Assembly: GCA_020724945.1 (NCBI GenBank)
Contig: DYFX01000003.1
Location: 1 to 36,223, forward strand
DNA: 36,223 bases
DNA from: Candidatus Paceibacter sp.
Lineage (GTDB): Bacteria; Patescibacteriota; Patescibacteriia; SG8-24; DYFX01
Reading direction: 5' to 3'
The first letter of the stretch is position 1. Each line of letters starts with the position of its first letter. Under the pieces are notes generated by a model. It did no database searches, was not told where the DNA came from, and was given only the letters and a program-made list of their open reading frames with translations. Below are positions 643-3,919 of the stretch, in pieces. The position numbers and the translations under genes were made by a program.

Positions 643-2172
643 ATGGGCAAGTACCTGCGGATCAAGAACCGCGGGGAGTGCCCGCGGCTCTATCTGACCC
701 TGCTCGGAGCGACGACCAAGGGCGACAGGATGGACGACCCGTCCCAGGGCGGATGGTTCGGCTCGGGGACGAAATTCGCCCCCGTGGCCGCGCTCAACCT
801 GGGCATCAGCGTCGCCGTCGCCTCGCGCGACGAGGGAGGCCGGTACTTCATCCAGTACCTCGCCGAGAAGCGCAAGCTGCCGGGCAAGACGATCAAGCAG
901 ATCGTCCTGCGCACCACCCTGCCGGATCGGAGCTTCGTCACGCGCGATACGCCGTTCACGCTCGACGCCTGCAAGAACTGGAAGGAGCCGATCGGCGACG
1001 ACGGCATGAAGGCCTTCCGCGTCCTGCGCGAGTACCTGCGCAACGCCGTCGATGCGGATCCGCAAGGCTACGCGATCGAGGAGTGCGACGAGCTCCAGTG
1101 GCCGCCGGAGGGATGGACCTATGTCTACCTCTCGGTGTCGGCGGAGATCCGCGCGATGCTGGCGGCCCCCGCCCGCTACTTCAAGTATGTCGCGCCGGAG
1201 CGTAATCCGCCGCCGCTCGCGTACTTCAAGAACGGCGCGGCCTACGCCCGCTCCGATCCGGAGCGCACGCGCCTCTTCTCGCTCGGCACGCTAGCCTTCT
1301 GCAGCGCGCACCCCCGGTATCGGGCGCGCTATGACTACAGCGTCGACGTGAAGACCGGTACCCAGGGACGCCCGCTCCTCGCCGAGGAACGGACCTTCTC
1401 GGACATGAGCCTGGTCTACTGCGAGGTCAAGAAGATGCTCGCGGCCTGGAAGGATGTCGCCGCGCTCACCGGACTGATCACGGCCATGATCGACGGCGAC
1501 GCCTCGTTCGAGGCGGAAGCGATGGGGTATCTGGACAACACGCCCAAGCTCCTCGCCGCCGCGCCGGAGTGGCTCGCCGCCTGGCGACGGGCCTACGGCG
1601 ACGACGCCGTCATCTCCTCGAACCCGTACGCGGACGAGCTCGCGCGCTACAGCTTCCGGAAGACCTCCGTGACCGTCCTGCAGCAGGGCGTCCGAAGCTT
1701 CCTGAAGGCCTGCGGCGTCCCCGAAGCCGCCGAGTGCATCCCGGGGATGGTCGTGGGACAGGAATACCGCCCCGTCGCCGACCTCGAGGATTGGGAACGC
1801 GAGCGCCTGGCGATCGCGTGCGCCATCATGCACGAGGAGTTCCCCGAATCGAAGGGCTTCGCGCTCTGCGTCTACGAGCCGATGACGGAACGGATGAAGC
1901 CGACCCTCGGCTTCGCCCGCTACGACACGGCCCAGCCCATCCTCTTCGTGCAGCGCGCCTGCATCCGCTCGTGGGACACCCTGATCGCGACGCTCGTCGT
2001 GCACGAGTGCCGCCACGCCCGCACCAAGGTCGACGACACCAAGCGCGACTTCATCGACCGGGCGGACCGCGACCTCGCGGACCTGCTCATCGAGAAGCAC
2101 GGCCTCGAGCACGAGCCCGAGGTGAGGCCGGAGGACATCAGCCTGCCCTCCGTCATCGTCGCGAAACCGTAA
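643..2172 (+). CDS. Permuted GHKL-type ATPase domain with C-terminal HExxH motif
   Basis: 509 residues, start fixed by AAGGAGG 6 bases upstream. Residues 7-60 contain N-R-G, then LLGATTK (20-26), then a glycine motif FGSGTKFA (39-46), which resemble the G1 and G2 boxes of the Bergerat fold. Residues 129-138, REYLRNAVDA, match the GHKL N-box (E-x-x-x-N-A-x-D-A), which normally comes first. The order is therefore G1-G2-N, as in a circular permutation. At 454-458 is HECRH, an HExxH zinc-protease signature preceded by a hydrophobic stretch (IATLVV), followed by an acidic segment that could hold a third ligand. No signal peptide or membrane helix is seen, so it is probably cytoplasmic. Single gene with its own promoter and terminator. 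Function unknown; ATP binding and peptidase activity are inferred from motifs only. Confidence 0.6.
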   Translation: MGKYLRIKNRGECPRLYLTLLGATTKGDRMDDPSQGGWFGSGTKFAPVAALNLGISVAVASRDEGGRYFIQYLAEKRKLPGKTIKQIVLRTTLPDRSFVTRDTPFTLDACKNWKEPIGDDGMKAFRVLREYLRNAVDADPQGYAIEECDELQWPPEGWTYVYLSVSAEIRAMLAAPARYFKYVAPERNPPPLAYFKNGAAYARSDPERTRLFSLGTLAFCSAHPRYRARYDYSVDVKTGTQGRPLLAEERTFSDMSLVYCEVKKMLAAWKDVAALTGLITAMIDGDASFEAEAMGYLDNTPKLLAAAPEWLAAWRRAYGDDAVISSNPYADELARYSFRKTSVTVLQQGVRSFLKACGVPEAAECIPGMVVGQEYRPVADLEDWERERLAIACAIMHEEFPESKGFALCVYEPMTERMKPTLGFARYDTAQPILFVQRACIRSWDTLIATLVVHECRHARTKVDDTKRDFIDRADRDLADLLIEKHGLEHEPEVRPEDISLPSVIVAKP

Positions 2173-2206: not shown

Positions 2207-3919
2207 CTATTCCGCGGCGGCGAGCACCTCGTCGACCGTCGTGAGGCCGTCGAGCGCCTTCAGGATGCCGTCCTGCGCCATCGTGACCATGCCCTGCTTC
2301 ACGGCGAGCTCCTGCATCTGGTACTCGGAGACGTTGCCCGTGAGGAGCAGCTTCTCGATCTCGGGGCTCATGGTGAAGATCTCGTAGATGCCCAGCCGGC
2401 CCTTGTAGCCGGAGTCGCCGCAGGTCTTGCAGCCCTTGCCCTTGTAGAACTTGGCGGCGTCGAGGTCCGGCTTCTCGCCGGCGTCGGGCGAGAGCGTCGC
2501 CATGATGTCCTTCACCTTCTTCAGCTGCTCCGGCTCGAGCTTCACCTCCTCCTTGCAGTCCTTGCAGATGCGGCGCACCAGGCGCTGTCCGATGACGGCG
2601 TTCAAGGCCGGCGCGAGGAGGAACGGCTTCACGCCCATCGAGAGGAAGCGCGGGATGGCGCCAGCCGCGCTGTTGGTGTGGATGGTGGAAATCATCAGGT
2701 GGCCGGTGAGCGCCGCTTGGATGGCGGTCTCGGCCGTCTCGAGGTCGCGGATTTCGCCGACCATGATGACATCCGGGTCCTGGCGCAGGATGGCGCGCAG
2801 GCCCTTGGCGAAGGTGTAGTCCTTGGAGAGATCGATGGGGGATTGGTTGATGCCCTCCAGGCTGTATTCGACCGGGTCTTCGAGCGTGATGATCTTCGTC
2901 TCCGCGTCGTTGAGCTTCTTCAGCGTGGCGTAGAGCGTGGTCGTCTTGCCGGAACCGGTCGGACCGGTCGTGATGATCATGCCGTTGGGGCGTTCCACCT
3001 GCGCCTTGAGCTGTTCGTACGCCTTGCCGCGGATGCCGAGATCGTCGAACGACAGGCCGATGGTCGAGGGCTTGAGGAGGCGCATCACGACGGATTCGCC
3101 GTAGGAAGTCGGGATGGTCGAGACGCGGACCTCGGTCTTCTTGCCGCCGATGAAGATGGTGAAGCGCCCGTCCTGCGGGATGTTGTTGACGTTGATCTTC
3201 AGCGCGGAGAACAGCTTGATGCGCGAGATGATGCGCGGCCAGACATCCTTGCCGAGGCGGGCGGCGTCCTGGAGCACGCCGTCGATGCGGTAGCGCACCA
3301 CGACATCCTTCTCCTCGGCCTCGATGTGCATGTCCGAGGCGTCGCCCTTGAGCGCGCCCGCGATGATGATGGTGACGGCGTCGGTGATGTCGGCGCCCTT
3401 CATCATGGCGTCCAGGTCCTTGAAGGACGCCATCTTGTCCTGGTACTTCTTCAGGTCCGCTTCGGTGATCTCGACGCCTTTCACGATCTTGCGGATCTTG
3501 GGGAGCGTGTCGTAGAGCTTCATGGCGTGGGCGAAGCTCTCCTCGGAGATGATGTACATCCCGACATTGGCGCGCGCCCGTTCGCCGACCTGATAGGCGG
3601 CTTCCTTCACCTCCGCGCGCCCCGGGTCGACGGAGGCGATGCGCACCTCGTCGCCGGTCTGCAGGAAGACGACCGTCTTGAGCTCCTTGGCCTGCTCCTG
3701 CGAGAGGAGCACGAGCGCCTCGGGCGAGATGGGGAAGCCTTTCAGGTTGATGTAGGAGACGCCCAAAAGCTGCCCGCGCTTGGCGGTCTCGCGCTCCTTG
3801 GCCTGCAGATCGAGCTCGCGCATCTTGGCGGAGAACTTCTCCTGCGCGTCCGGGGACGCGATGCTCGGCAGCTTCGATTTCTTCAGCAGGTCGTCGATCG
3901 TGGGATTGTCTCCAGGCAT
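2207..3919 (-). CDS. pilB: PilB/GspE-type type IV pilus assembly ATPase
   Basis: 570 residues, hexameric secretion-type ATPase that powers pilus extension at the cytoplasmic face. Walker A GPTGSGKTTT is at 319-328, the Asp box EDPVEY at 347-352, Walker B with DPDVIMVGEIRD at 381-392 and the His box TGHLMISTIHT at 405-415. A C-terminal zinc module has Cys at 452, 455, 497 and 500. This four-Cys module is typical of PilB/GspE and absent from PilT. The N-terminal 170 residues form the variable MshEN-like region. It follows the membrane protein gene by 39 nt; that gap contains an imperfect hairpin without a T-run and no Shine-Dalgarno. The retraction partner pilT lies about 15 kb away. Confidence 0.93.
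   Translation of the reverse strand: MPGDNPTIDDLLKKSKLPSIASPDAQEKFSAKMRELDLQAKERETAKRGQLLGVSYINLKGFPISPEALVLLSQEQAKELKTVVFLQTGDEVRIASVDPGRAEVKEAAYQVGERARANVGMYIISEESFAHAMKLYDTLPKIRKIVKGVEITEADLKKYQDKMASFKDLDAMMKGADITDAVTIIIAGALKGDASDMHIEAEEKDVVVRYRIDGVLQDAARLGKDVWPRIISRIKLFSALKINVNNIPQDGRFTIFIGGKKTEVRVSTIPTSYGESVVMRLLKPSTIGLSFDDLGIRGKAYEQLKAQVERPNGMIITTGPTGSGKTTTLYATLKKLNDAETKIITLEDPVEYSLEGINQSPIDLSKDYTFAKGLRAILRQDPDVIMVGEIRDLETAETAIQAALTGHLMISTIHTNSAAGAIPRFLSMGVKPFLLAPALNAVIGQRLVRRICKDCKEEVKLEPEQLKKVKDIMATLSPDAGEKPDLDAAKFYKGKGCKTCGDSGYKGRLGIYEIFTMSPEIEKLLLTGNVSEYQMQELAVKQGMVTMAQDGILKALDGLTTVDEVLAAAE

Follow-up and report, generated by a model that had tools for sequence, protein, structure and literature searches.

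GHKL ATPases such as Hsp90, MutL, gyrase, and the histidine kinases are described as carrying their motifs in the order N-box, G1, G2, and an aspartate that contacts adenine stands at their G1 motif. The closest described relatives of the protein analyzed here, designated P0001, are two families of phage proteins, PHROG 8203 and PHROG 6077, both of unknown function. PHROG 8203, which includes gp29 of Pseudomonas phage YuA, has the same motif order as P0001 (G1-G2-N-GT), an E-x-R block, and a homologous C-terminal domain, but its members are 392 to 397 aa long and carry EExxH, not HExxH; other annotations within this family read "HATPase" (Ssp-JY42) and "hydrolase, metallopeptidase" (AN14), and the literature, as partially covered here, yielded no useful paper on YuA gp29. 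The PHROG 6077 type, exemplified by EalM132_00137 of Exiguobacterium phage vB_EalM-132 and CDS0173 of Moorella phage MTATph1, has homologous ATPase and transducer blocks, and both of these proteins possess a HETxH C-terminal domain. Unlike P0001, the PHROG 6077 type is N-box-first, and most of its members are without the peptidase-like domain.

Scanned singly, P0001 matches no Pfam or NCBIfam model, as motif searches based on the canonical order overlook such proteins, and its matches to PHROGs 8203 and 6077 are weak and restricted to the first 60 residues (hmmscan against PHROG 8203, 0.003). The P0001 family profile, however, aligns colinearly with PHROG 8203 (residues 4 to 496 with 1 to 408; hhalign E value of 8.6e-26), such that homology extends over the full length. 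The protein family is therefore not new, and its nature seems to be undescribed in the literature searched. We consider it moderately probable that P0001 is a GHKL ATPase in which the N-box unit has moved to a position between G2 and the GT strand, and which continues into an Hsp90/MutL-like transducer and a C-terminal zincin (HExxH) domain.

The gene and its conserved motifs

The window, i.e., the entire stretch of DNA analyzed, consists of 36,223 nucleotides of Candidatus Paceibacter sp. (contig DYFX01000003.1), and coordinates below refer to its forward strand unless stated otherwise. The P0001 gene is a 509-aa open reading frame at positions 643 to 2172, whose ATG at 643 is preceded by a strong Shine-Dalgarno sequence (gaaggaggaa, positions 630 to 639) read directly from the sequence; the reading frame, its coordinates, and all named motifs are exactly as given in the original prediction. 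The gene starts 66 bp past the same-strand tsaE gene (positions 115 to 576; Pfam TsaE, 8e-33), which follows the tail of tsaD (positions 1 to 114), and a Rho-independent terminator (positions 2173 to 2196) lies between it and a convergent gene for a PilB/GspE-type ATPase on the reverse strand (positions 2207 to 3919; Pfam T2SSE, 7e-122). The promoter of its own that had been proposed for this gene was not recovered: given the absence of a sigma-70-like site from positions 400 to 2400 and the 66-bp same-strand spacing, cotranscription with tsaE is just as likely as transcription from a dedicated promoter. The highest hydropathy average over 19 residues is 1.4, by which P0001 is probably cytoplasmic.

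The ATPase core opens with the G1 motif N9-R10-G11 (positions 667 to 675), in which N9 and G11 are invariant and which aligns with the D-D-G of DxGxG in the canonical-order relative L018. There follow a predicted ATP lid (residues 21 to 40, positions 703 to 762), modeled as a low-confidence loop (pLDDT of 59 to 62 in the domain model and 45 to 52 in the full model), and the G2 motif FGSGTKFA (residues 39 to 46, positions 757 to 780), which begins a helix at residues 41 to 52. The transposed unit (positions 934 to 1056) comprises a strand at residues 98 to 106 and the N-box helix at residues 125 to 138 (REYLRNAVDA, 129 to 138) and is succeeded by a strand at residues 144 to 148, after which the GT strand (residues 157 to 164, with G157-W-T159-Y-V161; positions 1111 to 1134) closes the ATPase core in its canonical place. 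The middle part (positions 1171 to 1422), with its invariant Y179-F180 and E248-x-R250, is transducer-like, in line with the full-length structural match to Hsp90.

Across eight full-length proteins of the lineage that are 26 to 35% identical to P0001, the residues N9, G11, G22, S41, G42, K44, R129, E130, N134, H454, E455, R457, and H458 are invariant, which at such low identity makes these motifs more than chance. When the phage relatives are added (16 rows, N-terminal 260 aa), N9, G11, G22, G42, K44, G66, R129, E130, N134, Y179, F180, E248, and R250 are still invariant. The N-box conforms to E-x-x-x-N-A-x-D, with R129, E130, and N134 in 16 of 16 rows and D137 in at least 90%, and at G2, GSGxK opens a helix, as in the GxxGxG motif, its first glycine being glutamine in two members. 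The G1 motif is of the N-[R/K]-x-G type and not DxGxG: asparagine replaces aspartate in nearly all permuted members and the second glycine is absent, a further departure that might alter nucleotide use. All orthologues have N-x-G, GSGxK (first glycine variable), and RExxxNA in common, together with HExRH where they are full-length. The motifs that had been named are thus real and conserved, the ATPase motifs recurring both in the orthologues of eight related Patescibacteria genomes and in phage proteins.

The C-terminal zincin-like domain

Residues 383 to 485 (positions 1789 to 2097) are predicted to form a helix, three strands, the HExxH helix (444 to 461), and a final helix (469 to 485), the same arrangement as in small zincins. 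The HECRH motif (residues 454 to 458, positions 2002 to 2016) reads HExRH in all nine full-length bacterial proteins. D465 is invariant, and D475 (positions 2065 to 2067), a candidate third metal ligand, is D or E in every bacterial member and missing from the EExxH proteins. The bacterial C-terminal profile is related to those of the canonical HETxH group (E value of 1.5e-8) and the EExxH group (1.9e-7). Searched against the PDB, the HExxH profile has eight best matches with E values of 0.19 to 0.91, none significant alone (Spartan, Wss1/WLM, 3e11, and MJ1213), all of which we take to be zincins or to be so annotated by known structure class. The original prediction of a fused HExxH metallopeptidase therefore stands insofar as a conserved HExxH domain occupies the same chain, but no profile match to a known zincin family is significant, the best being to DUF6782, a putative metallopeptidase family (0.002, for the C terminus of relative L018), and to Spartan (0.19).

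Neither the bacterial clade nor the phage clade nearest to it shows any variation in HExxH, which in further phage relatives is replaced by EExxH (the YuA-type, L010, L016, L053, and L054 proteins) or lacking altogether (L011, L017, L020, and L057). The joint expectation that the ATPase and peptidase motifs would be conserved in concert consequently holds only in part: the N-box and G2 are kept in Patescibacteria and phages alike, but the HExxH motif of many phage proteins is EExxH or absent. Genes whose products have EExxH and no longer possess the candidate third ligand lie at positions 2486 to 3661 of L014, 2495 to 3676 of L015, 2492 to 3682 of L016, 6001 to 7293 of L053, 747 to 2021 of L054, and 4001 to 5419 of L010.

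To judge from their sequences, the EExxH phage relatives appear to have abandoned zinc peptidase chemistry, and because others have lost the motif, this chemistry is probably retained in only part of the family. At the level of sequence, such losses show the presumed peptidase chemistry to be dispensable for the function common to the family, which counts against the explanation that we favor. They also lend themselves to a different account, possible but in our estimate improbable, in which the permuted GHKL module is a clamp, the C-terminal domain is a structural or regulatory zincin relic, and the conserved function is ATP-driven remodeling or binding rather than proteolysis; the N-box, G2, and E-x-R do stay in phage relatives whose HExxH is altered or gone. 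But every full-length bacterial member keeps both HExRH and D/E at residue 475 despite identities of about 25 to 47%, and the sister phage clade and two canonical relatives likewise have HExxH.

As a special case of the favored explanation, P0001 could be a DNA-linked, ATP-dependent protease that acts on DNA-bound or cross-linked proteins in the manner of SprT/Wss1, with the GHKL module as a DNA clamp. The C-terminal profile finds its best, though weak, PDB matches in Spartan and WLM/Wss1, and the phage genes adjoin those for primase, helicase, polymerase, or ligase, both in keeping with such an activity, which we nevertheless regard as unlikely: those PDB matches are not significant, phage early genes cluster regardless of function, and the bacterial neighbors are tsaE and pilB.

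Probable rearrangement of the GHKL core

The phage proteins were reached by tblastn, and further ones were obtained from IMG/VR contigs, one of which has neighboring genes from phage families. The permuted order occurs in the huge-phage proteins L010 and L011, in YuA gp29 and its kin, and in L050 to L057, and the canonical, N-box-first order occurs in L012, L018, L019, L022, L024 to L028, L030, and L031, of which L012 and L018 carry HETxH. The nameless family is tied to the GHKL ATPases by L018, whose N-terminal 140 residues match HATPase_c (4.8e-5) and HATPase_c_3 (7.4e-5), both just under the curated gathering cutoffs, and which has DDGPG at G1 and HETLH at its end.

Profile alignments between the permuted and canonical families break into two pieces. 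The bacterial family aligns with the canonical family from residues 7 to 361 (to 51 to 323; hhalign E value of 1.3e-15), and the second-best alignment pairs the N-box at 129 to 151 with 26 to 48 (1.1e-3); the YuA-type phage family likewise aligns over residues 3 to 244 (to 50 to 250; 1.6e-16), with a second piece pairing 89 to 143 with 11 to 60 (1.2e-6). As a sequence pattern, this two-piece alignment is the signature of a permutation. We then repermuted the profiles in silico, shifting a 50-column segment to the front, realigning to the canonical family, and scoring each placement. For the bacterial family, moving the segment with the N-box gave the highest score among 46 placements (167, against 123 for the native order and a median of 113); for the permuted phage family, the same move raised the score from 126 to 175, the highest among 35. 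Taking the GT strand along lowered the score from 167 to 157 (bacterial) and from 182 to 170 (phage).

Because the best placement contains the N-box and moving the GT strand is detrimental, the motif order is G1-G2-N-GT, and a circular permutation of the whole domain was rejected in favor of transposition of the N-box unit only. In these alignments, the unit of strand, N-box helix, and strand is exchanged with the block running from G1 to the post-G2 strands, and the last strand is unmoved. What had been predicted as a circularly permuted GHKL ATPase is accordingly rearranged relative to its canonical-order relatives, but with its N-box unit between G2 and the GT strand and not by permutation of the entire domain. 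A tandem duplication followed by trimming would produce this order.

AlphaFold models are confident for residues 1 to 260 (16 sequences; pLDDT of 89.2, pTM of 0.87), where the lid at 21 to 40 is the main uncertain part, and somewhat less so for the full length (eight sequences; pLDDT of 83.5, pTM of 0.68). The domain model contains, in order, the G1 strand, lid, G2 helix, four strands, the N-box helix, and two strands. Against the PDB, Hsp90 is the only Foldseek match of the full model with an E value below 1e-3 (1.4e-5); the domain alone has none below this threshold, with Hsp90/HtpG constituting four of its five top matches (0.06 to 0.19), although Foldseek aligns in sequence order only and so penalizes a permuted domain. 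The predicted Bergerat-like sandwich, whose N-box helix would face the glycine loop, has in its favor a confident model with fitting elements and the full-length match but no significant match of the isolated domain. In the BFVD, a 543-aa protein of an uncultured phage ranks first (5e-29), and next comes a protein of 437 aa, equal in length to that of L012. The phage family has a weak sequence match to MORC2, and an "RNaseH" match in Vibrio phage YC (E value of 3) was taken as chance.

An unrelated, non-Bergerat domain that by chance bears GHKL-like motifs in the wrong order would account for the want of Pfam matches and for the nonsignificant domain-only search; we deem it very unlikely, in that the profiles are homologous to those of canonical proteins matching HATPase_c, the second alignment falls exactly at the N-box, and the top fold match is Hsp90.

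Chromosomal locus and comparison with known systems

Orthologues occur in 9 of 95 related genomes (own genome included), all but one from the same taxonomic order. Relatives with a named source come from a Candidatus Uhrbacteria, from Parcubacteria SG8_24, and from a Candidatus Paceibacterota MAG. In a 380-genome sample of the phylum, the genome of origin is the only match, and at the level of the class, PHROG 8203 has matches in 5 of 286 genomes, each from the same order. Single-protein scans of viral and genome contigs and a search of plasmids returned no relatives; the related-genome search and a tighter alignment extended the reach. PADLOC returned nothing for the bacterial proteins and chance-level matches for the phage relatives (PtuB, 0.0016; DrmB, 0.005).

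The arrangement tsaD-tsaE-(0 to 3 genes)-gene-pilB is found in the window and in genomes G001, G006, G010, G011, and G048; G008 preserves it up to the contig end, G009 preserves its pilB flank, and G007 departs from it. The tsaD-tsaE/pilB locus itself is common to genomes of more than one family, and in G002 and G003, which are without the gene, a transglycosylase-like gene and an RF-1-type gene lie between tsaE and pilB. Within the same taxonomic order, peptidoglycan enzyme genes (SLT_2 transglycosylase or, in L041, VanY) repeatedly adjoin the gene or replace it between tsaE and pilB (L038, 3363 to 4208; L039, 1194 to 1964; L042, 8669 to 9529 and 9645 to 10475; L041, 6153 to 6857; L083, 1477 to 2295). 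In G048, a reverse transcriptase gene (RVT_1; L044, 5939 to 7024) is situated between tsaD and tsaE. The G008 orthologue (L008, 1498 to 2661) departs from the family sequence near the contig end, probably through a frameshift or assembly fault, and was excluded from the full-length profile.

In the tree (midpoint rooted for drawing only), the bacterial proteins fall into a single clade (100/99) adjoining the HExDH phage clade L050 to L052 (99/98), and each genome has a single copy. The least likely explanation is that the gene is a prophage remnant of recent arrival, or sits on a contaminating contig, and has no bacterial role; the close phage relatives and patchy presence might point that way, but the synteny across more than one family, the single bacterial clade, the single copy, and the intact motifs largely refute it. 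The gene is a single-copy constituent of this Patescibacteria lineage, phage related and stably kept on the chromosome. Between congeners (643 to 2172 of the window versus 1438 to 2964 of L002), the protein is 36% identical, TsaE 57%, and PilB 83%, and the congeneric orthologue no longer carries the N-box Asp or the first Gly of GSG; the P0001 gene evolves unusually fast at a fixed locus, with its catalytic motifs largely kept.

Under the favored explanation, the rearranged segments would fold back into a single, normal Bergerat ATP site, ATP binding would shut a dimer formed by the N-terminal parts in the manner of Hsp90/MutL, the transducer with its invariant YF and ExR would relay the movement to the HExxH domain, and that domain would cut or grip one protein substrate. 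A gene that diverges fast, has phage relatives, and is often lost is more suggestive of phage-host conflict, or of the handling of nucleic-acid-bound proteins, than of housekeeping, although weak constraint would likewise account for the fast evolution. For DNA-bound proteins, the weak hints are the SprT-like C termini and the replication-gene neighbors in phages; for phage-host conflict, rIIA (PMC7824862) and VcSduA (PMC12137116) may serve as precedents by analogy.

What we would tentatively put forward, with reservations greater than those attached to the architecture itself, is that the Bergerat fold has undergone a natural permutation, apparently without earlier description, that is present in phages and Patescibacteria and powers or gates a metalloprotease; the literature, in the part covered, contains no paper on a permuted Bergerat fold or a GHKL-HExxH fusion. 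P0001 has the look of an ATP-driven machine, related to phage proteins, that some ultra-small bacteria have retained chromosomally. Since motif order is altered with residues kept, and canonical-order sisters exist in phages, permutation of the fold is directly testable, and the survival of both sister families in phages opens the permutation event itself to study.

Among known systems of phage-host conflict, T4 rIIA orthologues and VcSduA (a Shedu protein with GHKL) join GHKL to a C-terminal effector that varies (PMC7824862, PMC12137116), and the VcSduA authors put forward control of the C-terminal nuclease by the GHKL domain (PMC12137116), but these proteins are described as having a standard N-terminal GHKL domain, and their C-terminal domains are others. 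Hsp90/HtpG, MutL, and MORC share the N-box, G2, and GT strand with P0001 but have the canonical order, DxGxG in G1, and no peptidase domain. The SprT/Spartan, Wss1/WLM, DUF6782, and DUF2268 zincins resemble P0001 in their HExxH helix after a small sheet and in weak profile matches but differ in that none matches significantly, and P0001 is fused to an ATPase and has a third ligand that is a candidate. Should the fusion prove active, it would constitute an ATP-gated metalloprotease built differently from the AAA+ proteases.
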